DNA from: Bacillota bacterium | Lineage (GTDB): Bacteria; Sysuimicrobiota; Sysuimicrobiia; Sysuimicrobiales; Segetimicrobiaceae | Direction: 5' to 3' | Length of the DNA stretch: 64,000 bases | Assembly: GCA_021324255.1 (NCBI GenBank) | Contig: JAJPJL010000037.1 | Span: 1 to 64,000, forward strand | In this document: positions 3,795 to 42,982 of the stretch, piece by piece | How positions within the stretch are numbered: position 1 is the first letter of the stretch | Layout: the number at the start of each line of letters is the position of its first letter | Notes under the pieces: model-generated | The model's database searches: none | What the model was told of the DNA's origin: nothing | Seen by the model: only the letters and a program-made list of their open reading frames with translations | Translations under genes and position numbers: made by a program

Positions 3795-4394
3795 GTGAGA
3801 CGATCTTCGCTGCTTCGGCAGGCCGGCGCACCATCGCCTTCCGGGGCCATCACGCTCGCCGTACTGACAGGACAGTTGAGCGAGATCTCGGGGCTTGGGG
3901 CCACTGCCGGCCTGACGGTGGCCACCCGCCTCGTCCTTGACGCCCAGCGGCATGGAGAGCTCGCCGCGTGGATCACCCCTGCGGATCGCCCGTTCTTCCC
4001 TCCCGATGTCGCCGACAATGGCGTGGACCTCACGTCGCTGGTGGTCGTGCGGGTGCCGGACACGATGGCAGCGGCGCGGAGCGCCGACCGGCTTGCACGG
4101 TCCGGCGCCTTTGGGCTGCTGATCGTGGACCTGCAGGATGCCGCTGCGCTGCCTCTCCACGTGCTCGCCCGGCTCGCGGGATTGGCGCAGCACCATCACA
4201 CGGCGATCGTGTTCGTGACCCAAAAAGCGCCAGGCGCCCCCTCGCTGGGATCGCTTGTCGCCCTGCACGGCAGCACGACACGCGCGCGCCTGGCGGCGGA
4301 TACGTTCGCCTGCACCCTGCGCGTCGGAAAGGACAAGCGCCGGGGCCCCTGGACGGTTGAGGAGGTCTGCCGTGGACCGGCTGGCCTGCGTTAA
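3795..4394 (+). CDS. imuA: ImuA-like RecA/SulA-family mutagenesis protein
   Basis: Small RecA-like fold protein immediately upstream of a Y-family polymerase-like protein and DnaE2; C-terminal KDKRRGPWTVEEV resembles ImuA/RecA tails. Confidence 0.75.
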   Translation: MRRSSLLRQAGAPSPSGAITLAVLTGQLSEISGLGATAGLTVATRLVLDAQRHGELAAWITPADRPFFPPDVADNGVDLTSLVVVRVPDTMAAARSADRLARSGAFGLLIVDLQDAAALPLHVLARLAGLAQHHHTAIVFVTQKAPGAPSLGSLVALHGSTTRARLAADTFACTLRVGKDKRRGPWTVEEVCRGPAGLR

Positions 4395-5868
4395 CCTCCC
4401 GTCGTTCCCGCTGCAGGTACTCCTCCACGGCCATCCTGCATGGCGCGGCACGCCCACGGCCGTCCTCGAGGAGGAGCGGCCGCAGAGCCCGATCCTCTGG
4501 GTCGATCCGCATGCGCGTCGAGCAGGCGTGCGCCCAGGCATGCGGTTTGCCGCCGCGCTGGCGCTCGCTCCCGCGCTCAACGCGGGCTGTGTCTCCCCTC
4601 CCGCCCTGACGCAGGCGCGCGACAGGGTGACTGGCCGGCTCCGGCGGTTCGCCCCCGACGTTGAGCCGGCGGATGACCCGGGGATCTTTTGGGCCGGCCT
4701 CACCGGGCTCGAACGCCTCTATGCATCGCCGGCGCGATGGGCCGATGCGGTACGCGCCGACCTAGGCACCCTCGGGTTCGAGGCGACCGTGGTGACCGGA
4801 TTCACCCGGTTTGGCACCTATGCCGTCGCCCACGCCACCCGGGGGACGCGGAGCTTCCGGGACCCCCGCGAAGAGCGGGCGGCGGCCCTCGAGATCCCGC
4901 TCGCGCATCTGGCGATCGCCCCGGAGATCCGGGACGTCCTCGTCAAGCTCAACGTGACGACCGTCCGCGACCTCGTACGGCTCCCGGAAGCGGGACTCCT
5001 GGAACGGTTTGGGGTGAAGGCGTACCGGCTGCGCCAGGCAGCCGGAGCATCGCACACGACGCTGCGGCCGGTTGCCGAAGCGGCGCCCGTTCGCGCCCAT
5101 CGCACGCTCGATGAGCCGGAAACCGATCTGTCCCGCTGCCTGTTTGTGTTCAAGCAGATGCTCGATCCGATGCTCGCCACGCTGGCCGCACGGGGCACGG
5201 CGCTCGCCGCGCTCGAAATCCGGCTCGAGCTCGACCGATGCGGACCACGTGTGGAGCAGATCCGGCCGGCCGCGCCGACGCTCGACCCCGTGCAGGTGCT
5301 GGAGTTGGTCCGGCTGCGCTTGGAAGACCGGACGAGCGCCTCCGCGCACGACGCCCTGGCCGGGATCGTCGAGATCGATCTTACGGCCGTGGCGGTCCCG
5401 GCAACGCACGAACAGCTTCGGTTCTTCGGCAGCCCCCCGCATCGTGATCTCATCGCCGGCAACCGCGCGCTGGCGCGACTCCGGGCCGAGTTCGGCGAGC
5501 AGGCTGTGGTTCGTGCCCGGCTTCGTGACGGTCATCTCCCCGAGGCCCGTGTGACGTGGGAACCGGTACGCGCGCTCACGCCTCCCTCCCCCTCACCCGG
5601 ACGGCCGGGAACGCTCGTCCGGCGTATTTGGGCGCGCCCCGAGCCGGCCGCGCCCGCCGCGACGCGCCAGCACGACGGCTGGTTGATCCTCGGCACCGGG
5701 TATGGCGCGGTCGAGGATCTCCTCGGCCCCTACATCGTCTCCGGCGGCTGGTGGGTCCGCGAAGTGGACCGTGCCTACCATTTCGCGCAGACCCGGCGCG
5801 GCGATCTGTTGTGGGTGTACCACGATCGCCTCCGCCGGCGGTGGTTTCTTCACGGGCGGGTGGAATGA
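4372..5868 (+). CDS. imuB: ImuB-like Y-family DNA polymerase homologue
   Basis: GTG start after GAGGAGG; LACVNLPSFPLQVLL N-terminus, LNVTTVRDLVRLPEAGLLERFG helix-hairpin-helix, C-terminal YHFAQTRRGDLLWVYHDRLRRRWFLHGRVE. Confidence 0.88.
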   Translation: MDRLACVNLPSFPLQVLLHGHPAWRGTPTAVLEEERPQSPILWVDPHARRAGVRPGMRFAAALALAPALNAGCVSPPALTQARDRVTGRLRRFAPDVEPADDPGIFWAGLTGLERLYASPARWADAVRADLGTLGFEATVVTGFTRFGTYAVAHATRGTRSFRDPREERAAALEIPLAHLAIAPEIRDVLVKLNVTTVRDLVRLPEAGLLERFGVKAYRLRQAAGASHTTLRPVAEAAPVRAHRTLDEPETDLSRCLFVFKQMLDPMLATLAARGTALAALEIRLELDRCGPRVEQIRPAAPTLDPVQVLELVRLRLEDRTSASAHDALAGIVEIDLTAVAVPATHEQLRFFGSPPHRDLIAGNRALARLRAEFGEQAVVRARLRDGHLPEARVTWEPVRALTPPSPSPGRPGTLVRRIWARPEPAAPAATRQHDGWLILGTGYGAVEDLLGPYIVSGGWWVREVDRAYHFAQTRRGDLLWVYHDRLRRRWFLHGRVE

Positions 5869-5871
5869 GCC

Positions 5872-8800
5872 GTGTACACGCCGGTATGGTGCAAGAGTGC
5901 GTTTTCGTTTTTGGAGGGAGCATCGCACCCCGAGGAGTTGGTGGATGAAGCCCACCGCCTCGGGTTGCGCGCCATCGCGCTGACGGACCGCGACGGGGTG
6001 TACGGCGTGGTGCGCGCACACGTCGCGGCGCGCGAAACCGGCTGCCGTCTGATCCCAGGCGCCGAGGTGACGCTCACCGACGGCTCGATGATCGTGCTCC
6101 TCGCCCGCGATCGCGGCGGGTACGCCAATCTCTGCCGGCTGCTCACGCGGGGCCGGCTGCGGTCGCCCAAGGGGCAGTGCGCCGTGACGTGGGACGAGGT
6201 GTGCGCGCACGCGCACGGTCTTCTCGCACTGTGGGGAGGCGATCGGAGCCTGCTCGCCGGCGAGGAGGACCCCCACGCGACCGCCGGGGCGGTACGCGAG
6301 GCGTTCGGCGATGCGCTCTATGCGCTCGTTACCCGCCACCGCCGGGACACCGATCCCCGTCGGGAGGCGCGGGTGCGCGGGCGCGCCACCCGCCACAACC
6401 TCCCGGTGGCGGCCGCCGTCGAGGTGCTCTACCATACGCCGGCCCGCCGGCCGTTGCAGGACGCCCTCGTCTGCCTGCGTCATGGCCGGCAGCTCGTGGA
6501 CGCCGGGGGTGTGATCAAGCCCAACGCCGAGCACGCCCTGCGCTCGCCGCATGCGTTTGCCATGCTCTTCCACGACGATCCGGGCGCCGTGCAACGCACC
6601 GAGGAGATCGCGGCGCGGTGCGGCTTTGCGCTCGACCAGCTTCGCTACCGGTATCCGGAGGAGCGGATCCCCGAGGGCCTGACGCCCCAAACCTGGCTCC
6701 GCAATCTCGTCTTCACAGGCGCGCGGGAACGGTACGGGGGCGCGCTGACGGCCGACGTCCTGCAGCAGATCGAACGGGAACTGGCCGTGATCGACGAGCT
6801 CGACTACGGCGGGTACTTTCTGACGATGTGGGAGATCGTGCAGTTCTGCCGCCGGAACGGGATCCTCTGCCAGGGACGCGGCTCCGCCGCGAACTCCGCC
6901 GTGTGCTACTGCCTCGGCGTGACCGCGGTGGATCCGGTGCGGTCGAACCTGCTGTTCGAGCGCTTTCTTTCCCGGGAGCGCGCCGAGCCGCCGGACGTGG
7001 ACCTGGACATTCAGCACAATCGCCGGGAGGAAGTCATTCAGTTTGTGTATGAGCGGTACGGACGCTCGCACGCGGCGATGGTTGCCAATGTGATCCGCTA
7101 TCGCCCCCGGTCGGCGGTGCGGGACCTCGGCAAGGTGCTCGGCATCCCCGAGACCGCCGTCGACCGGCTGGCCCGGCTGCTCGACTACGGCGGGGAGGTC
7201 CCTGCGGAGGCGCTGCGGGCGGCCGGACTGGATGCGGATGCGCCGGCGCACCGGCATCTCCTACGGCTCGCCAACGAGCTGATCGGGCTGCCCCGCCATC
7301 TGTCCATCCATCCCGGCGGATTTTTGCTGGGGGATCATCCGGTGGACGAGATCGTCCCCATCGAAAACGCCACCATGGACGGCCGCACCGTCATCCAGTG
7401 GGACAAGGACGATCTCGAGGCGCTCGGCCTCTTCAAGGTGGACCTGCTCGGCCTCGGCGCGCTCACCCACCTGGACTTGACGTTCAAACTGTTGCACGAG
7501 CACCGCGGGATCGCGTACTCGATGGCCACGCTGCCGCCGGAGGACCCGGCGACGTACGCGATGGCGAGCCGCGCCGACACGATCGGGGTGTTCCAGATCG
7601 AGAGCCGCGCCCAGATGGCCATGCTCCCGCGGCTGCGGCCGCGCACCTTCCACGATCTCGTCGTCGAGATCAGCATCGTGCGTCCCGGCCCGATCACCGG
7701 AGGCATGGTCCATCCCTACCTGCGCCGCCGGAACGGCGAGGAGCCGGTCGAGTATCCGCATGCGCTGCTCGTCCCGGTGCTCGAGAAGACGCTCGGCGTG
7801 CCCCTGTTCCAGGAGCAGGTGATGCGCCTCGCGGTCGTGGCGGCGGATTACACGCCGGGCGAGGCGGACCAACTACGGCGCGACATGGCGGCCTGGCGCC
7901 GGACCGGCCGCATCGAGCGGCACCGCGACCGGCTCATCTCCCGCATGACGGCGAAAGGTATTCCCGCCGAGTTTGCGGAGCGCGTGTTCGACCAGATCCG
8001 CGGGTTTGGAGATTACGGCTTCCCGGAGGCGCATGCGGCCAGCTTCGCGCTGATCGCCTACGCGACCGCGTACCTCAAGTGTCATTTCCCCGCGGAGTTC
8101 ACCTGCGGGCTCCTCAACGCGCAGCCGATGGGCTTCTACAGCGTGGCCACGATCGTTGAGGACGCTAAACGCCACGGCATCGTGATCCGGCCCATCGACG
8201 TCCGGTGGAGCCGGTGGGATTGCACACTCGAAGCGCTCCCTGCCGCGCCCGCTGGCGGCGCCGGGGACCCGCGTCCTGCGTCGCAGGCCGGGCGCACCGG
8301 GGGCCCGCGCCTTGCCTTTGACGCTGGGGGCGCCGGGGACCTGGACCGAGCGACTTGGCATCACTCCAGCCATTGGAGCGAGGGAAAGGACACCGGCGCT
8401 CCCTCGCTGCTAGAGGGGTGCGGCTTGGCCGTGCGTATGGGGCTGCGGTACGTCCACGGGCTCGGCGAGGACGACGGGACGCGGTTGGTACGCGCCCGGG
8501 ACGAGGCGCCGTTCGCCTCGCTCGACGACTGCGTGCGGCGCGCCCGGATCGACCGGGGCGCGCTCGCCGCGCTCGCGGAAGCGGGTGCGTTCGAAGGATT
8601 TGGGATCGGCCGCCGGACCGCGTTGTGGCGCGTCCACGGCCTGGCACGCCGGCGTCACATCACGCTGCCGTTACGGATGCACGAGCCCACGCCGGCGCTG
8701 GAGACCTTGAACCTCCGCGAGCAAATCGCCTGGGACTACCGTGCGACCGCCCACAGCCCGCGGGGCCACCCGCTCCAGCCGCTCCGGGAAGAGCTCCGGG

Positions 8801-9129
8801 CCGCGGGTCTCCCGGACGCACGCACGGTCGGCACCCTCCCCCACGGCCGCTTCGTGCGCTACGCGGGGCTCGTGATCTGCCGGCAGACGCCCGGGACCGC
8901 GGCCGGTGTGACGTTCATGACGCTTGAGGACGAGACCGGGTTTGTGAACCTCGTGGTGTGGGCGCGCGTCTTCGAACGGTTTGCGCCGCTCGCCAAGACG
9001 GCGGCGTTCCTCGGCGTCTCCGGTACGATCCAGCGCGAACACGACGTTGTGCACATCGTCGCCGCCACGCTGTGGGCGCCGCGGGTGCGCCGCCGGCCGC
9101 CCGCGCTCCGCAGCCGCGACTTCCACTAG
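5872..9129 (+). CDS. dnaE2: Error-prone DNA polymerase III alpha subunit (DnaE2)
   Basis: PHP domain [75 protein letters not shown]; length about 1085 aa. Confidence 0.96.
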
Positions 9130-9932: not shown

Positions 9933-10763
9933 ATGACTACTTCCCTCGCGATGTTCCGGTCCACGCAACGCGGCGACACGGCCCGCGCCGCCGGCCGTTC
10001 GCGGAAGCGCAAGTCCCGCGGCCCCTCCGAGGCCGAGGTGAACGCCATGTTTGCCCGGCTTCGCGAGACGCACGATCCGGCCACGCGCGACGCGCTGGTG
10101 CTCGCGCACCAGCACCTGGCATCCTACTTTGCGCGCCGGTTTCGCGACCGCGGGGAGCCGTTGGAGGACCTCGTGCAGGTCGCGCAGATCGGGTTGATCA
10201 ACGCGGTCGACCGGTACGACCCGACGCGCGGCGTGCGTTTTGGCACCTACGCCGCGGCGACGATCATCGGCGAGCTCCGGCGCTACTTCCGGGACAAGGT
10301 GTGGACGATCCACATCCCGCGGCGGCACCGGGAGCTCAACTACCGCCTCATGCAGGCGGTGGAGGTCTTGAGGCAAGCCCTCGGACGGTCGCCCACGATC
10401 GAGGAACTCGCCCGGCACACGGGGATTCCGTTCGACGTCGCGATCGAAGCCCTCGAAGCGTCCCACGCGTACGCGCCGGTGTCGTTGGACGAAGACTCGG
10501 CGGACCGCGCGCAGGAGGATTCGATCCAGCGGCTCGAGCAACTGGGCGCCGACGATCCGGGGATCGCCCGCACCGACGACGTGCTCGCGCTGGAGCACGC
10601 CTGGGCTCACCTCTCGGATCGCGAACGCGCCGTCCTGGCGCTCCGGTTCAAGGAAGGGCTCCCGCAGAGCGAGGTGGCGGAGCGAGTCCGGGTGTCACAG
10701 ATGCAGGTGTCGAGAATCCAGCGCCGGGCGCTGTTGCGGCTGCGCGCGCTCATGAACGAGTGA
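9933..10763 (+). CDS. RNA polymerase sigma factor, SigB/SigF/SigG-like
   Basis: Sigma70 region 2 LEDLVQVAQIGLINAVDRYDPTRGVRFGTYA; region 4 LSDRERAVLALRFKEGLPQSEVAERVRVSQMQVSRIQRRALLRLR. Confidence 0.95.
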   Translation: MTTSLAMFRSTQRGDTARAAGRSRKRKSRGPSEAEVNAMFARLRETHDPATRDALVLAHQHLASYFARRFRDRGEPLEDLVQVAQIGLINAVDRYDPTRGVRFGTYAAATIIGELRRYFRDKVWTIHIPRRHRELNYRLMQAVEVLRQALGRSPTIEELARHTGIPFDVAIEALEASHAYAPVSLDEDSADRAQEDSIQRLEQLGADDPGIARTDDVLALEHAWAHLSDRERAVLALRFKEGLPQSEVAERVRVSQMQVSRIQRRALLRLRALMNE

Positions 10764-13893: not shown

Positions 13894-14148
13894 TTACGTG
13901 GCGCCGCGACGCTGCCTCCCGCGCGCCTTACGGCGGTTGAGCACCTCGGCGATGCGGCACAGCAGCGCGTCGCTCGGCCGCGCGCGGCCGTTGATGATCT
14001 GGTTCAGGTGCGACGCGCTCACCCCGGCTTCCATCGCGATCGCCGAACGGCTGACTCCGGCCGCGTCGCACCACGCGCGGAGCTCTTGGACGACGGCGGG
14101 GACCGGGCGTGCGTCCGAGCGGATGTGTGTCGAGCGTAATCGCGTCAT
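13894..14148 (-). CDS. XRE-type helix-turn-helix protein
   Basis: GVSRSAIAMEAGVSASHLNQIINGRARPSDALLCRIAEVLN HTH pattern. Confidence 0.85.
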   Translation of the reverse strand: MTRLRSTHIRSDARPVPAVVQELRAWCDAAGVSRSAIAMEAGVSASHLNQIINGRARPSDALLCRIAEVLNRRKARGRQRRGAT

Positions 14149-14194: not shown

Positions 14195-14461
14195 TTACGA
14201 GGAACCCCCAGGGGCGTCCGCTCGCGACCGGCCCGCCGCGGCTCGCGGCCCGGCGGCGGAAACGAGCGCCTCGCGCGCCACGAGCGGCTGGTACGCCGCC
14301 ACCGCGGACAGCCTCAGCAGCCATTGATGGTACCGTGTCGCGGCGCCCTCGTCGAACGTCGGGACCATCCGATCGGCGCGGCCCGCAGCGGCCCTGCGGC
14401 CGGTCGCGGTCCCCGGCTCCGACCGCCGTTGCCGTACACCCTGCCGCCACAACCCTCTCAT
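14195..14461 (-). CDS. Small hypothetical protein upstream of XRE gene
   Basis: ATG after AGGTGA; MVPTFDEGAATRYHQWLLRLSAVAAYQPLVAREALVSAAG segment. Confidence 0.5.
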   Translation of the reverse strand: MRGLWRQGVRQRRSEPGTATGRRAAAGRADRMVPTFDEGAATRYHQWLLRLSAVAAYQPLVAREALVSAAGPRAAAGRSRADAPGGSS

Positions 14462-14527: not shown

Positions 14528-14622
14528 CCGTGACATACATACCACATTGAGCGCGCCATGTGCCGCGCAACGAGGTTTCGTGACGCGGGAATGTGCGGTC
14601 GATTCGCGGCTCGTCCGTTCGA
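14528..14622 (-). promoter_or_regulatory. Copy A of a duplicated ~95-nt intergenic element
   Basis: Gapless alignment to 18468-18562, 72/95 identical by hand count; upstream of 14195-14461. Confidence 0.7.
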
Positions 14623-14668
14623 CGCGCGCCGCAGATCCAAATAGGGAGCGAGGCGGCTCGAGCGAGGA

Positions 14669-15250
14669 TCAGTACCTGCAAGGCCCGCCGCCGGCGGCGG
14701 CGAGGCACGCCACTTCCCCGCTCGCGCGCACCGCGATCGTCCTGGAGCCGGCGTTGTTCGCGATGACGATCGTTTGGTCCGTCGAGTACGGCGTCCCCGT
14801 GGTGTCGTCCGGCATGCCCTGACAGGTGAACAGCAGCTGGTCCGACGGGAACGACGCGCTCGCGACGGTGAGACCGGACGGCAGCTGGTCTGTCTCGACG
14901 GTCGACCAGGTGCCGGCGACCGGGATCGCGCACCGATTTGCCACGGCGCCTCCCGCCGGTGACAGCGTCTGCACCGTGTACGTCCCGCTCGCCGTGGTGA
15001 AGGACACCAGCGTCAGGTAGTGCTCGGTTCGCGCGCGATCCGCGGCCGCGCGGAGGGCGGCGGTCAGTTGCTGCGCGCCGAGGTCAAGGTTGCGGGATGC
15101 CTGATATCCCTGGAGCAGCGGAATCGCCGCCACCAGCAGGACGGCGATGATCGCGAGTGCGACCATCAGCTCGACCAGGCTGAGCCCGCCCTCGCGGCCC
15201 CGGGCCGCATGCCGCCGACGCGTCCCCGCGATGCCGGTCACACCACGCAC
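14669..15250 (-). CDS. Prepilin, GspH/FimT-like
   Basis: Type IV prepilin N-terminus REGGLSLVELMVALAIIAVLLVAAIPLLQGYQ. Confidence 0.9.
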   Translation of the reverse strand: MRGVTGIAGTRRRHAARGREGGLSLVELMVALAIIAVLLVAAIPLLQGYQASRNLDLGAQQLTAALRAAADRARTEHYLTLVSFTTASGTYTVQTLSPAGGAVANRCAIPVAGTWSTVETDQLPSGLTVASASFPSDQLLFTCQGMPDDTTGTPYSTDQTIVIANNAGSRTIAVRASGEVACLAAAGGGPCRY

Positions 15251-15260
15251 GGCCGCGCCC

Positions 15261-17411
15261 TCAGTACACTTCGCGCCAACCGGCCCGGCTGGCGCTCGTG
15301 TCGAAGAGGTTGTTGATCGTGGCGGTGTACTGCAGGGCCACCGGGAAGTACGGGGGCACCGCCTGCCCGTTGAGCGGCCGGGAATCGAACACGATATTTT
15401 GGTTGTAGCCGCTCGCGAGGCCGTTGCCGTTGAAGGTGCCGGTGTAGCCCGCGTAATACGAGATCTGGCCCCCCAGGTTGTTCCAGCAGCCGCCGTCGGG
15501 CTGCCACTGTCCGCCGCACGTGGAACTGCCGGTGTTGGAATAGACCGACCCGTAGTTGGTCACGCCGATCTGGCCGCCCCCGGACATGACGAACGCGTCC
15601 GTCGTCAAGGTCGGCGGCGCGTTCGTGACCATCACGTTGCCGGTCGCCGAGTAGATGCCGAGAATGTTCGCGGGCTGCGCGCCGCTGGACGCCGGCTGTG
15701 TCTGGTAGATGATATTCTCGTCGATGTTGATGTCGCCGCCGGCGGCAACGTCCAGGGCCGTGTTCGACTGGATGCACGAGCCGACCAGGCTCGTATTGTT
15801 GGGATTCTGGCCGAGATCGCTGCTATCTCCGGGGCACGATGACGACGAGTTCACGGTCCGCCCGCCGAGCGCGGCGATGCTGCCGCTCGTGTAGATCATG
15901 CCGTTGGGCTGGCCGGCGTAGGTCGCCGTGGAGGTGCTTTGGCCGCCCCCCGTGAGGGTCTGCACGGTCGCGACCGTCGTCTGGTTGGCCGTCTGGTTGA
16001 TCGTGATCGTGACCACCTGGGTCCTGACCTGGGCCGACGGGTTGGTCTGCGTCACGGTGATGACCTGGTTACCGCTCCCGTCGATGGAGAAGCTCATGCC
16101 GGTCAGGTTACTGTCCTGGATGTAGACCCCGCCGTTGAGCGTCGCCGGCGATCCGGCCGCCGGCAGGTAGACTCCGTTTGGCGGGGGGTTGGTGCTGCAC
16201 GTATTCGAGCACAGACCCAGGTCTTGATTGATCTCCTGGTTCGTGACGGCCGACGTGTCCCCGGGATTCCCGCCGATCGCCGCGCGGATCTGGCTGTAGG
16301 CGTTCCCGGGCATCGGCACCATGTTCGCCAGCCGGTTGAAATTCGCCCCGCCCTGCATGTAGGTCGGATTGTCGGCCGAACACGGAGTGCTTCCCGTGTG
16401 CCGCGGGGAGCACCAATCCGCGATGTCCTGCGGGTTGCCGTTGTTGTAGAAGTGCACGTAGCCTTGCGATGCCTGCGTGCCGGCCACGCACTGGCCGTTC
16501 TGGTAGCTGAAACTGTAGTTGGCGCTGCCCACGGAGCTGTCGAAGACGGGGTCGCCCGCCAGCCACAACTCCCCGTTCGTAAACACCGGGCCGTTGAAGA
16601 CGTTGCCGGTCGTAAAGTACCCGTTGTTCGTGCACTGGCCGTTGCTCGGCGGCGGGCCGAAGAAGTTCGAGAAGAACGCGTAGTCGGCGAAGCTGCCGGG
16701 TGCGATCGTCACGTCAAAGTCCTTCTGCACCTGGACCTGGCGCGTCGCCTGCAGCGAGACGCCGCGGGACAGTACCGCGTACGTGAAGTAAAAGGTATAG
16801 GAATAGGCCGTCGCCGGGCCGGACCGCTTGATGTAGACGCCCCCAACCTGCCGGGGCGTGATCGTCACCTTGGCCGTGTACGAACCGTCCCCGAGTGATT
16901 GCACCTGGTCGCCCGTGTAGAGCGCGAGGTACATCGTCGGGTAGTTCGCCACCTGGCTGACCACCTCGTAGGTCGCAGGCGCCGAGCCGCCGGTCCAGGT
17001 GCTGTTCCAGCTGGCGTTGGTGAGCGTGTTGCAGCAGGTGTTCGAGCTGCTCTTGAATCCCGCGTAGTTCAGAATGGCGAGCGGCGCGTTGTTCGCGTAG
17101 ATCGTGGCCAGGTCGGCGGCGAGCTGGGTCTGCCCGCCCGCAACGGTTTGGGCGTTCTGCAAGCTCTCCACGAGCTGGTAGACGGCTTCGCGGCCCACGG
17201 TCGCGCCGCCGTCGGCCAGGTACAGGGCGTCCGCAGCCGCGCGCTGCCCCCGGCTCAGGATGACTTCCTTGCCCGCCAAATCGAGCACGAGCAGCACGAG
17301 CGCCGAAATCACGAAGATGATCGCCAGCACGGTCACGAGCGCCAGGCCGCCCTCCGCGGCCGCACGGCCGGGGTGCCAGCGTCGCCGCAGCACAGAGCGC
17401 AGGTGTCTCAC
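15261..17411 (-). CDS. Large PilX-like pilus assembly/minor pilin protein (about 716 aa)
   Basis: GTG start after GGGAGGGG; EGGLALVTVLAIIFVISALVLLVLDLAGKE...ADALYLADGGATVGREAVYQL; lies between prepilin genes. Confidence 0.8.
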   Translation of the reverse strand: MRHLRSVLRRRWHPGRAAAEGGLALVTVLAIIFVISALVLLVLDLAGKEVILSRGQRAAADALYLADGGATVGREAVYQLVESLQNAQTVAGGQTQLAADLATIYANNAPLAILNYAGFKSSSNTCCNTLTNASWNSTWTGGSAPATYEVVSQVANYPTMYLALYTGDQVQSLGDGSYTAKVTITPRQVGGVYIKRSGPATAYSYTFYFTYAVLSRGVSLQATRQVQVQKDFDVTIAPGSFADYAFFSNFFGPPPSNGQCTNNGYFTTGNVFNGPVFTNGELWLAGDPVFDSSVGSANYSFSYQNGQCVAGTQASQGYVHFYNNGNPQDIADWCSPRHTGSTPCSADNPTYMQGGANFNRLANMVPMPGNAYSQIRAAIGGNPGDTSAVTNQEINQDLGLCSNTCSTNPPPNGVYLPAAGSPATLNGGVYIQDSNLTGMSFSIDGSGNQVITVTQTNPSAQVRTQVVTITINQTANQTTVATVQTLTGGGQSTSTATYAGQPNGMIYTSGSIAALGGRTVNSSSSCPGDSSDLGQNPNNTSLVGSCIQSNTALDVAAGGDINIDENIIYQTQPASSGAQPANILGIYSATGNVMVTNAPPTLTTDAFVMSGGGQIGVTNYGSVYSNTGSSTCGGQWQPDGGCWNNLGGQISYYAGYTGTFNGNGLASGYNQNIVFDSRPLNGQAVPPYFPVALQYTATINNLFDTSASRAGWREVY

Positions 17412-17442
17412 GATTCCCCTCCCTCGTGCGGATCGGTGCCGC

Positions 17443-17964
17443 TCACCAGCTGCACGGGTTCGTCGCTTGGAGCGTGTTGCGTGGGAAGACCGTCGTCGTG
17501 AACGTCCGCGTTTGCGCGCCGGCCGTCGCCGTGATGGTGAGGGCCAGCTCGCCGCCGTTCCAGGTCGGGCCGAACGCCGTGATGTCCGCGCCCACCTCGG
17601 ACGCCGCCGGCGCGGCCCCGGCCGGCGGGCCGGCGGCGCGGGTGACCGTGGCCCCGCTCTGCGCGTACGTGACGCAGTAGTCGGACGCCGATACGGCGTT
17701 GCCGGCCGGCACGTGAATCTCGACGGAGCTTCCGGTGACCCTGATGTAGTCGGCCCAGCGCGCCTCCTCGACGATGCGCTCCAGCACATACCGCGCGTTC
17801 TGCTGCACCTGGAAGAAGTTGTCGGTCAGCCTGGACGACTGCGCCTGCGTGCTGAGGAGCGCAAAGATGCCGCCCGCGGCGATGGAGAACACCGCCATCG
17901 CCACCATCATCTCGACAAGGGTGACGCCGCGCACGCCCCGCGGGCCGGCGGCGGATGCGCTCAC
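17443..17964 (-). CDS. Prepilin, PilW-like
   Basis: GVTLVEMMVAMAVFSIAAGGIFALLSTQAQSSRLTDNFFQVQQNARY. Confidence 0.88.
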   Translation of the reverse strand: MSASAAGPRGVRGVTLVEMMVAMAVFSIAAGGIFALLSTQAQSSRLTDNFFQVQQNARYVLERIVEEARWADYIRVTGSSVEIHVPAGNAVSASDYCVTYAQSGATVTRAAGPPAGAAPAASEVGADITAFGPTWNGGELALTITATAGAQTRTFTTTVFPRNTLQATNPCSW

Positions 17965-18416
17965 GGGCCCACCACCGTGGTCAGGCTGACCTCGGGCGCC
18001 GTGCCGCCGCCGAGGTACACGGTAGCGGTGATCGTCTCGAAGTTCATGGTGCCGTTCGTCGAGACCGAGGTCTGAAGCTGATACGGTGTTCCGGACACCG
18101 CGGCGCGGGCCTGGGCGGGCACCGGAAAGGTGCCTGAGGCGGTCGTTTCACGCGCCGTCTCGAGCGCCTGGCGGGCAATGTTGGTCGCGGCCGTCAACTC
18201 GTTCGTCTGTGAGGCCTGGCCCATGCTCCAATCAAACCCGGCCATCAGCGGCACCAGCACGAGGGCGAGGATGCCGAGCGCCACCATGATCTCCACCAGC
18301 GTGAAGCCCCCCTGGCATCCCTCGGACGGGCGGCGCCGCCTATGCGCCCGCCCCGCGGGGCGCGTCATCTGCCCCGGTGCGAAAGACTGGTGTTTCCGCG
18401 TTCGCAGCGCCGGCAT
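17961..18416 (-). CDS. Prepilin, PilV-like
   Basis: QGGFTLVEIMVALGILALVLVPLMAGFDWSM; ATG at 18416 after a G-rich RBS. Confidence 0.88.
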   Translation of the reverse strand: MPALRTRKHQSFAPGQMTRPAGRAHRRRRPSEGCQGGFTLVEIMVALGILALVLVPLMAGFDWSMGQASQTNELTAATNIARQALETARETTASGTFPVPAQARAAVSGTPYQLQTSVSTNGTMNFETITATVYLGGGTAPEVSLTTVVGP

Positions 18417-18467
18417 CGGTCGGTCCCCCCTTTCGCGTCGGTGCGTTCCGGGCGAGCATTCCGAGTA

Positions 18468-18562
18468 CCGTGAGATACATACCAAAGTAAGCGAGACAAG
18501 TGCCGTCCCAAGCGGTTTTGTGACGGCACAATGTGCGTTCGATTTGTCCTTCGTCCGTTCGA
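18468..18562 (-). promoter_or_regulatory. Copy B of the duplicated ~95-nt element, upstream of the prepilin operon
   Basis: Gapless alignment to 14528-14622; contains perfect 8-bp hairpin GTGCCGTC/GACGGCAC. Confidence 0.7.
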
Positions 18563-29969: not shown

Positions 29970-30134
29970 ATACCGGCCGCGCGGCCGCATGACAGTGCCG
30001 ATTCGTTTGGCGCGAATCCACGAGGGCGATGTATCCGTTGTTCCGGCAACGCGGACCGCCGGGAGTGACCGGTCCGCACGGGAGGCCGGCAGTGGCACGA
30101 ACGATGAGGGACTGATACGATTGGGCTTGCATCA

Positions 30135-30195
30135 GGCGATGGAGCTCGCCTCAACCGCCCCGGTGCTCCTGCTTCGCGGGCTGATAGCTCCTACC
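30135..30195 (+). promoter_or_regulatory. Fluoride riboswitch (crcB motif) aptamer
   Basis: GGCGATGGAGCTCGCCTCAACCGCCCCGG...GCGGGCTGATAGCTCCTACC matches the crcB pattern GGxGAUGG..CC..AACxGC....GCxGGCUGAUxxCUCCUAC. Confidence 0.9.
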
Positions 30196-30219
30196 CCACA
30201 CCAGGGTAGGGGCTTTTTT
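30186..30219 (+). terminator. Expression-platform terminator of the fluoride riboswitch
   Basis: AGCTCCTACCC/GGGTAGGGGCT 11-bp stem (one G-U) then TTTTTT; 5' arm is shared with the aptamer 3' side. Confidence 0.88.
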
Positions 30220-30244: not shown

Positions 30245-31462
30245 ATGGACCATGTCTGGTTTTTGGCCGCGCTCTGGATCGGGCTCGCGCTTCTCGCCAC
30301 GCTGTTTGCCGCGTGGCTCCACGTGTCGGTCGCGCTCACGGAGATCGTGGTCGGGGTCGGCGCGTCGTGGTTGATCACGTCCCGCTGGGGACCCGCGGCG
30401 TTGGGTGCCGATCAGGGATGGATCACGTTCCTGGCGAGCGCCGGCGCCGTCATACTCACCTTTCTGGCGGGCGCGGAGCTCGATCCGGTCGCATTCCGGA
30501 GGAGTTGGAAGGAGACCACGGTGCTGGGCCTCGTCGGATTCCTGGCGCCGTTCCTCGGGGCAGCGTGGATGGCGAAGGTGGTGCTCGGGTGGGACCTCCA
30601 CGCCGCGTGGCTCGCCGGCGTTGCGTTGTCGACCACGTCGGTCGCGGTTGTCTACGCGGTGCTCCTGGAATTGGGACTCAACAAGACGCCGTTCGGCAAG
30701 GTCATCCTGGCGGCGTGCTTCATCAACGACCTCGGCACGGTCGTCGCCCTCGGACTCTTGTTCGCGCCGTTCACCTGGAAGACGGCGGTCTTCGGGCTTG
30801 GCGCGGTAATGGCCCTCGTCACGCTCCTCTGGACGACCGGACGCCTCTTTCGGCATCACGGCGGGAAGACGTCGGAATTCGAAGCCAAGTTCCTGCTCTT
30901 CGCGTTGTTCCTGCTGGGATGGCTCGCGGCGTGGTCCGGGTCCGAAGCCGTCCTACCGGCCTATCTCATCGGCATGGTGCTCGCGGGCTCGGTGGGCCGC
31001 GATCAGGAACTGATCCGCCGGCTCCGTACGCTGACCTTGGGCCTGCTGACGCCGTTCTATTTCCTGCGCGCCGGGTCGTTCGTGCAGGTGCCGGTGCTTC
31101 TCGCCGGTCTCGGCACGTTCGCTGCGCTGTTCCTCGCCAAGGCCGTGAGCAAGTTCGTCGGGATTTTCCCCATCACGCGCGTGTTCCGCTATCCGAAGCC
31201 CGACGCGGCGTACACGACGCTGCTGATGTCGACGGGGCTCACGTTCGGCACGATCTCCTCGCTGTACGGCCTCTCGCATGGAATTATCACGCGGTCGCAG
31301 TACTCCTTTCTCGTGGCGACCGTCATCGCGAGCGCGGTGGTGCCGACGTGGGTCGCGAACCGGTTCTTCCTGCCGCGCCATCACCTGCGACCGGTGGACG
31401 GCTCGGAAGGGGACGTGGCGCTGGAGGAAGCTGCGCGGAACGCGGTCACGGCCGACGACTGA
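30245..31462 (+). CDS. CPA2-family cation:proton antiporter (Kef/NhaS-like)
   Basis: About 12 TM; ELDPVAFRRSWKET, GVALSTTSVAVVYAVLLELG, ACFINDLGTVVALG antiporter motifs. Confidence 0.92.
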   Translation: MDHVWFLAALWIGLALLATLFAAWLHVSVALTEIVVGVGASWLITSRWGPAALGADQGWITFLASAGAVILTFLAGAELDPVAFRRSWKETTVLGLVGFLAPFLGAAWMAKVVLGWDLHAAWLAGVALSTTSVAVVYAVLLELGLNKTPFGKVILAACFINDLGTVVALGLLFAPFTWKTAVFGLGAVMALVTLLWTTGRLFRHHGGKTSEFEAKFLLFALFLLGWLAAWSGSEAVLPAYLIGMVLAGSVGRDQELIRRLRTLTLGLLTPFYFLRAGSFVQVPVLLAGLGTFAALFLAKAVSKFVGIFPITRVFRYPKPDAAYTTLLMSTGLTFGTISSLYGLSHGIITRSQYSFLVATVIASAVVPTWVANRFFLPRHHLRPVDGSEGDVALEEAARNAVTADD

Positions 31463-40699: not shown

Positions 40700-42982
40700 T
40701 CAACGAACTGCATGCTCGCGGGCGCTGCGCTCCCCGACGTTGGCGCCCCAGGGCAATACGCGCGCGATCACGAGGGCCTGATCGTCCGTCGGCCCGTCGC
40801 CGCTCCAGCGGCCCACGGCCGCCATGATCTCGTCCGCGATCCGCTCCGGCTGCGCCTCCCGCAGCTCGATCAGGGTGTCGACGAGCCGCTGGTCGCCGAA
40901 CAGTTCCCCGTCCGGGCGGCGCGCTTCGGTGATGCCGTCCGTAAACATGGCCAGCAGATCACCGGGGCCCACCTGCACTTCCACCGCCGGGTAGCGGGCC
41001 GCGGGGTCGACGCCGAGCAGCAACCCGGGCGCGTCGAGCGCCTCGGGCGCCTGCACGCCGGCGCGCAGGAGGAACGGCGCCGGGTGCCCGGCCCGCGTGT
41101 ACCGGAGCGTTCCCGCCTCGGGGTCGACCATGCCGTAGAAGAGGCTGACGAACAGGCCGGAGGCGGCGTCGCGGGTGAGCACGGCGTTCATCCGCGCCAC
41201 CACGGCCTCGGAGGGACGGCCGTCCAGCACGAATGCCTCGAGGAGATACCGCGCCCGGGCGGACAGCGTGGCCGCGGGAATGCCCTTGCCCGTGACGTCC
41301 GCAATGGCCAGGCCGACGCGGCCGTGCCCCAAGGGAAGCACGGCGTAGAAGTCGCCGCCCACCTCGCGGCTCGGCACATACCGGCCCGCGATGGCCATAC
41401 CGGGCAGCCGGACGCTGGGCGTCGGCACCAGGGCCTCTTGAATCACGCCGGCGATCTCCCGCTGGCGTCCGTAGGCGCGCGCATTGTCCACGGCCAGCGC
41501 GACACGGTCGGCAAAGGCTTCGATGAGGCGAACGTCTTGGGCGCGAAAGTCTCGTTCCCCCCGCGCGATCAGCTCCAGCACGCCGATGACGCGGCCGCCG
41601 ACGCGCAGCGGCACGCACGCCGCGGCCCGCACGCCCTGCGCGAGCAGGCGCGGGTCGAGCGCACGGAACGCTTCCTCCCCCGAGAGGACGAGCGCGCGCC
41701 CGCCGTCCGCCACCCGTCCGGCCAGCCCTTCACCGCGCGCCAGCCGCCGCGCCCCCGCCGCTCCCGTGTCGGAGTCCTGCGGGACGATGAGATCCCCCGT
41801 CGCGTCATCGACGAACCACACGGTGCCGCCGTCCGCGCGCAGCGCCGAGGCGATGTGCTGCACGAGCCTCGCAAGCAGTTCGTCGAGCCGTACCGTGGAG
41901 AGCGCCGCATCGCTCACGCTCTGCAGGGCGTTGATCTCCGCGTGGGACCGCGCCAGCCGCTCGCTCATCTCGTTGAACGCGGTCCCCAGCTCGCCCAGCT
42001 CGTCGGTGCGGCGCATGCGCACCCGGTATCCGACCTCGCCGCGGCCGATCGCCCGCGCGCCGTTGGCCAGGGCCACGATCGGCGCCGTCAGTTCCGCGCC
42101 CAACACCCAGGCGAGGAACACGCCGAGGCCGACCGCCGCGACCACCCACCCCAGCTCTTCCTGTCCGCCGCGCCGCACCGGCGCCAGGGCCGTCCGTTCC
42201 GGCTCCAGGACCACGGCCGCCCAGCGCAGGTCGGCGATCGGCACCGCGGCTCCGATCTGGGGCCCGCCGGCCGCTGCGTCCCGGTAGCCCTCGATCATGC
42301 TCGGCTGACCGCGAAGCGCCGCCTGCACGGCGGGCAGCGATGCGAGCGCGTTGACCGGCCGGCCGGGCCGCCGCAGGTCGAACACGACGCGGCCGCCGTT
42401 GTCCACGATGATGCCGTCCATGTCGGAGGCCAGCCCGGTCGGCAGCATCGGCCGCACGCGCGTCAGATCCACGACGCCGTCCACCACCGCGGCGAGTCGG
42501 GGACCCTCGGGGATCCCGGTCGCGACCTCGAGTTCCGGGCGGCGGTTGGGAGCGCTGATGACGCCGGCGGCCCACGGCGCACCCGCGCGCACGGCGGCGA
42601 ACGCCCAGTGGGTCGCCACGTTCGTGTAGGCATCGCCGGGGGGCGCCGACGCCTCCACCCGCCCGTCGGGCATGATGAGGCCGAGCCAGAGAAACGAGGT
42701 ATCGTAGGCGCGGATCGACGCCAGCAACTGCACGATCCCGACCACCGGGTAGGGTTGGCTCTCCACTGCCGACCCCGCCGCCAGTTCCGCGTGCACCGTA
42801 TTTTCGACAAACGTGCTGAAATCGGATGCCAGCGTGTGCGCGGCATCCTGTTGCGTGCGCAACACGAGGTTACGGCGGCCCTGGTCCTGTTGCAGGCTCA
42901 ACAGCACACCGAGCACCAGGACCGGGACCATACAGATGAGGATGACGCAGGCGACCTTGCCCCGAATACCGAGCCGCATCAC
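40700..42982 (-). CDS. Membrane PP2C (SpoIIE/RsbU-type) phosphatase with Cache-like, HAMP and GAF regions
   Basis: TM + HAMP-like ANGARAIGRGEVGYRVRMRRTDELGELGTAFNEM, GAF, C-terminal SREVGGDFYAVLPLGHGRVGLAIADVTGKGIPAA. Confidence 0.93.
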   Translation of the reverse strand: MMRLGIRGKVACVILICMVPVLVLGVLLSLQQDQGRRNLVLRTQQDAAHTLASDFSTFVENTVHAELAAGSAVESQPYPVVGIVQLLASIRAYDTSFLWLGLIMPDGRVEASAPPGDAYTNVATHWAFAAVRAGAPWAAGVISAPNRRPELEVATGIPEGPRLAAVVDGVVDLTRVRPMLPTGLASDMDGIIVDNGGRVVFDLRRPGRPVNALASLPAVQAALRGQPSMIEGYRDAAAGGPQIGAAVPIADLRWAAVVLEPERTALAPVRRGGQEELGWVVAAVGLGVFLAWVLGAELTAPIVALANGARAIGRGEVGYRVRMRRTDELGELGTAFNEMSERLARSHAEINALQSVSDAALSTVRLDELLARLVQHIASALRADGGTVWFVDDATGDLIVPQDSDTGAAGARRLARGEGLAGRVADGGRALVLSGEEAFRALDPRLLAQGVRAAACVPLRVGGRVIGVLELIARGERDFRAQDVRLIEAFADRVALAVDNARAYGRQREIAGVIQEALVPTPSVRLPGMAIAGRYVPSREVGGDFYAVLPLGHGRVGLAIADVTGKGIPAATLSARARYLLEAFVLDGRPSEAVVARMNAVLTRDAASGLFVSLFYGMVDPEAGTLRYTRAGHPAPFLLRAGVQAPEALDAPGLLLGVDPAARYPAVEVQVGPGDLLAMFTDGITEARRPDGELFGDQRLVDTLIELREAQPERIADEIMAAVGRWSGDGPTDDQALVIARVLPWGANVGERSAREHAVR

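Follow-up and report, generated by a model that had tools for sequence, protein, structure and literature searches.

A duplicated 95-bp element before a minor-pilin operon and an HTH-protein unit is a probable lineage-specific DNA control region

Closest described systems

In Pseudomonas aeruginosa, the promoter of the fimU-pilVWXY1Y2E minor-pilin operon is bound directly by AlgR and Vfr (PMC8787478). By analogy, this promoter is the best functional parallel to the 95-bp element described here, which occurs twice in the window (the whole stretch of DNA that was analysed, 64,000 nt). The logic appears similar, as in both cases a minor-pilin operon would follow an upstream multi-site DNA control region with dedicated regulators (PMC8787478). 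The present element differs in being duplicated before the unit of a helix-turn-helix (HTH) protein, and neither a LytTR-domain protein nor a CRP/Vfr-type inverted repeat was found here. The regulators AlgR and Vfr do not carry over to the element. An AlgR/LytTR operator (CCGTTCG likeness, 20-bp repeats) was rejected because no LytTR protein was found; it was absent from six genomes, with control genomes positive. A sigma-54 promoter (GG-N10-GC likeness in three of the four known copies) was rejected because rpoN was not found, Sigma54_DBD being absent from six genomes (metagenome-assembled, about 95% complete; control genomes positive). Since neither protein was found, sigma-54 and LytTR (AlgR-like) control are both unlikely.

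Three other systems share single features with the locus. SigB/F and ECF promoters, like the element, combine an upstream box containing GG with a GGTAT-like box across a spacer of 16 nt; the resemblance of GGCAC-N16-GGTAT to them is presumably one of layout only. The upstream box of SigB/F promoters is GTTT, whereas that of the element is GGCAC, and no regulon beyond two sites was seen here. As in Cro/C1-type autoregulators, one copy is followed, apparently within the same unit, by an HTH gene, but the element is without a significant palindrome. Cro/C1-type proteins usually bind palindromes, and some regulators use direct repeats. The c-di-GMP-I (GEMM) riboswitch shares the leader position before pilin genes, and a CGCACA...AAACC likeness to it is one that we take to be superficial. 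The element differs from this riboswitch in having no conserved helices and no match to it at E ≤ 5 (window copies) or E ≤ 10 (copies of the congener G001). It is of an ordinary kind, a lineage-specific control region, and not a new element class.

The two copies, their neighbors and their distribution

A first-pass annotation of this DNA had described a duplicated element of about 95 nt, with 72 of 95 positions identical without gaps, in the leader or promoter position of two minus-strand units. Both points were borne out. A repeat search of the window returned a single family of direct repeats, 95 nt long, whose members lie at exactly 14528-14622 (copy A) and 18468-18562 (copy B), and together with an ungapped scan it gave the same 72/95 identities (76%). 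The next best place in the scan with copy A matched at only 45 of 95 positions (mean 25.9, sd 4.3), which excludes a chance match between A and B. The copies and the genes around them are as follows.

18468..18562, minus strand: copy B of the 95-bp element, preceding the minor-pilin operon
17961..18416, minus strand: minor prepilin (N_methyl), first gene of the operon
17443..17964, minus strand: minor prepilin (N_methyl)
15261..17411, minus strand: PilX-like protein (DUF4900)
14669..15250, minus strand: GspH-like minor prepilin (N_methyl/GspH-like)
14528..14622, minus strand: copy A of the 95-bp element, preceding the small-ORF/HTH unit
14195..14461, minus strand: 88-aa ORF, weakly supported as coding, preceding the HTH gene
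13894..14148, minus strand: 84-aa Cro/C1-type HTH protein (HTH_31/HTH_3), candidate regulator
9933-10763, plus strand: SigB/SigF/SigG-family sigma factor, about 4 kb from copy A

From the end of copy B to the ATG at 18416 of the four-gene prepilin operon the distance is 51 nt, and from copy A to the ATG at 14461 of the 88-aa ORF it is 66 nt; over the copies of both genomes that carry the element it ranges from 46 to 66 nt. The 88-aa ORF (14195-14461) has no Pfam family. G001 retains the core TRYHQWLLRLSAVAAY of this ORF, whose dN/dS is 0.57; together this is weak evidence for coding. The 84-aa HTH protein has four matches in the genome of the window (G000) and five in G001, apparently a small expanded family in the genus. 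Elsewhere in the window, the error-prone polymerase DnaE2 (4255-9129, plus strand; NF004225, 1340 bits) lies behind a 537-aa ORF that looks ImuB-type by eye, and the two probably make up a putative mutasome pair.

G000 (3.7 Mb, 142 contigs) contains copies A and B only. Two more were found in G001, at orthologous places (L011:10592-10686 and L011:14677-14771) and again before the pilin operon and the HTH unit, so that four copies are known in all. The first-pass annotation had held that a lack of homologues in relatives, or a match to a known dispersed repeat, would argue against regulation. One relative did yield homologues, and a dispersed repeat or MITE was ruled out, as there are just two copies per genome in G000 and G001. 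A phage, plasmid or viral origin was rejected on zero matches in the respective collections. DNA, profile and pattern searches of 43 genomes of the order found the element in G000 and G001 only. A sequence-only profile run on 12 genomes of the family scored these four loci at E ≤ 1.5e-26 and no other place lower than E = 0.11, and a wider scan of genome contigs matched a single locus, apparently G001's own. As only two species carry the element, both of them soil bacteria, the four copies make up a small and non-independent sample.

In a third congener, G002, the pilin operon stands elsewhere in the genome and without the element; the large protein is 65% identical. Since only G000 and G001 carry the element, it is a feature of one sub-lineage. 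The gene order around it is likewise specific to these two genomes, and the whole flanking order differs in the others. In G002 (L040:4703-8494), a sugar-transferase-like gene, part of an apparent exopolysaccharide cluster, immediately precedes the minor-pilin operon, and pilM/N/O/Q-like genes follow it, these names being those of the ORFs as read, with no profile search behind them. A change of place of the operon within the genus is suggested.

Gap-free alignment of G000 with G001 gives 91.6% identity for copy A and 87.4% for copy B, whereas the adjoining aligned non-coding DNA is 53-77% identical. The stretch from the element to the start codon is 77% (A) and 53% (B) identical, that upstream of B 69%, and a 129-nt indel lies directly outside the distal border of copy A. 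Synonymous sites in the small ORF and the HTH gene, the two genes tested, differ at 29% and 22%, i.e., they are 71-78% identical. The 95-bp block is under purifying selection. An excess of conservation over the surroundings had already been claimed from A and B; the comparison of the two species agrees and shows it better than the A-B alignment alone. Over 95 positions, the pairwise identities are 87 for A-A, 83 for B-B and 68-73 for A-B. The copies thus group by place and not by genome, and therefore the duplication is older than the split of G000 and G001, with constraint having preserved both copies.

Boxes, repeats and RNA helices in the element

All four copies agree in 64 of the 95 columns, and these invariant columns are clustered (31 runs vs 42.8 expected, p = 0.005). 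On the minus strand, the invariant blocks are TCrAACGGACGA, AATCGAnCGCACATT, CGTCACnAAAC, GGCAC and TGGTATGTATnTCACGG; their helical phasing was not significant when run lengths were kept (p = 0.21). The parts of the element are as follows.

18551..18562 (copy B) and 14611-14622 (copy A), minus strand: distal direct repeat 1, block TCGAACGGACGA
18530..18544 (copy B) and 14590-14604 (copy A), minus strand: distal direct repeat 2, block AATCGAnCGCACATT, 20 bp from repeat 1
18515..18525 (copy B) and 14575-14585 (copy A), minus strand: block CGTCACnAAAC
18479..18504 (copy B) and 14539..14564 (copy A), minus strand: putative promoter-like pair GGCAC-N16-GGTAT

The proximal half has the layout GGCAC-N16-GGTATGTAT, in which both boxes are fully invariant and 7 of the 16 spacer positions are invariant over the four copies. 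Within the window, the GGCAC-N16-GGTAT pair occurs at A and B only; genome-wide, the promoter block alone, with up to three mismatches, showed no clear excess over the control. The distal half carries on its plus strand the direct repeat GTGCGnTCGA / GTCCGTTCGA at a spacing of 20 bp, a marginal signal (p = 0.02), and inverted repeats in the element were not above chance (p = 0.94). The box-spacer-box layout of the proximal half and the direct repeat of the distal half are what make the element look like a promoter preceded by an operator of tandem sites, an arrangement that would serve two units.

The first-pass annotation had left open whether the element was a regulatory RNA or an operator, and had named a hairpin in each copy. 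Both hairpins are present in the window's copies. In G001, however, three pairs of the 8-bp stem GTGCCGTC/GACGGCAC of copy B are lost by one-sided changes, and the inner ACGA/TCGT stem of copy A is lost as well. Zero pairs of the copy B stem show compensatory changes over the four copies, and A and B have no helix in common. The RNAalifold consensus is weak (-5.5 kcal/mol, covariation term -0.19), and the folding of single copies is ordinary, with z-scores between -1.3 and +0.3 against shuffles. An Rfam search of the element region, which that annotation had proposed, was run at gathering and permissive thresholds; no family reached threshold, the best being Atu_At1 with 22.7 bits vs 60. The same annotation had stated that sequence conservation without covariation would argue for a protein operator rather than an RNA, and this is the pattern found. 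With four sequences, the absence of covariation is weak evidence by itself, and more weight lies on the loss of the proposed stems. The operator part of the earlier proposal therefore stands, on position, purifying selection, clustered blocks and lack of covariation, and the RNA part is unsupported, given the broken stem, the lack of a common helix, the ordinary folding and the absence of an Rfam family at threshold. Elsewhere in the window, a Fluoride riboswitch (RF01734, 50.4 bits) was found at 30126-30200 on the plus strand, directly upstream of a Na/H-exchanger-family gene (30245-31462; PF00999), a possible fluoride-resistance transporter.

Proposed control region and alternative readings

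We propose that the element is probably a duplicated DNA control region, consisting of a promoter and an upstream operator, which places the two minus-strand units under one regulator. Four copies stand at fixed places in two species, with purifying selection, clustered blocks and no conserved RNA helix. Conservation above the flanks, clustering of the blocks and a fixed place before genes are the features looked for in a promoter or operator, and all of them were found. The shared element would co-regulate the minor-pilin operon, through copy B, with the small-ORF/HTH unit, through copy A. The proximal half would be the core promoter GGCAC-N16-GGTATGTAT, with a predicted transcription start near TCACGG and a leader of perhaps 45-70 nt. 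The distal 48 bp or so may bind an activator or repressor at the tandem direct repeats, which are 20 bp (about two helical turns) apart. A consensus scan of the element found no canonical sigma-70 promoter (TTGACA / TATAAT, 16-18 nt spacer), and because this pair is absent, an alternative sigma factor may read the promoter. The SigB/F-type factor at 9933-10763 was considered as a dedicated reader. G000 has four SigB/F/G-like proteins, and the orthologue of this one is 94% identical in G001 and 71% in G002; since G002 is without the element, this role is unsupported by the distribution. A 760-aa HAMP-GAF-SpoIIE phosphatase encoded at 40700-42982 (minus strand) is a candidate partner-switch regulator for SigB/F-type sigmas.

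One alternative is an operator without an internal promoter, in which a regulator or nucleoid protein would occupy the 95 bp and transcription would start elsewhere. The missing canonical promoter would suit it, as would the downstream block TGGTATGTATnTCACGG, which is unusually long for a -10 region, but the conserved box-spacer-box pattern of GGCAC-N16-GGTAT and the short and constant distance to the start codons make it unlikely. A structured leader RNA, riboswitch-like or protein-binding, on the minus strand before both units could account for the position before both genes and for the 8-bp stem in copy B of the window; the conserved blocks would then be unpaired ligand-contacting nucleotides, and long invariant blocks can occur in aptamers. 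Considering that this stem is broken in G001 and missing from copy A, that the consensus structure is weak, that folding is no better than in shuffles and that no Rfam family matched at threshold, we regard such an RNA as slightly more unlikely still.

The two copies lie in direct orientation on either side of the pilin operon, G002 has this operon at another place, and only G000 and G001 share the gene order around it, all of which would fit direct repeats left as a scar of recombination or transposition when the operon moved in, without present function. Such a scar is very improbable, as both copies have remained far more conserved than their neutral neighbors since the species split, the genome has no further copies, and phage, plasmid and viral collections gave no match. 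An integron attC-type site was rejected because the end motifs do not fit by eye. Hardly any credence is given to a short conserved coding segment: by eye, minus-strand frame 1 runs without a stop in three of the four copies but is interrupted by one in copy A of G001, and the variable columns are spread evenly over the codon positions (12/9/10).

Returning to the promoter with an upstream operator, the Cro/C1-type protein encoded downstream of copy A would be the closest candidate binder, which would give an autoregulated pilin switch; coordination of the pilins with this HTH protein is something we infer from linkage. In its full form, the 84-aa protein would bind the tandem repeats in both copies, with TCGAACGGACGA, CGCACATT or CGTCAC as candidate contact blocks, and would jointly switch on or off the minor pilins and its own production, while a non-canonical sigma factor reads GGCAC-N16-GGTATGTAT. 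We offer this self-regulating switch as a tentative and doubtful model. Comparison with a single congener was enough to recast a two-copy "RNA motif" as a DNA element. If the proposal is true, the element would mark where the expression of type IV minor pilins is controlled in a genus represented here by metagenome-assembled genomes alone, with a testable candidate regulator named beside it.
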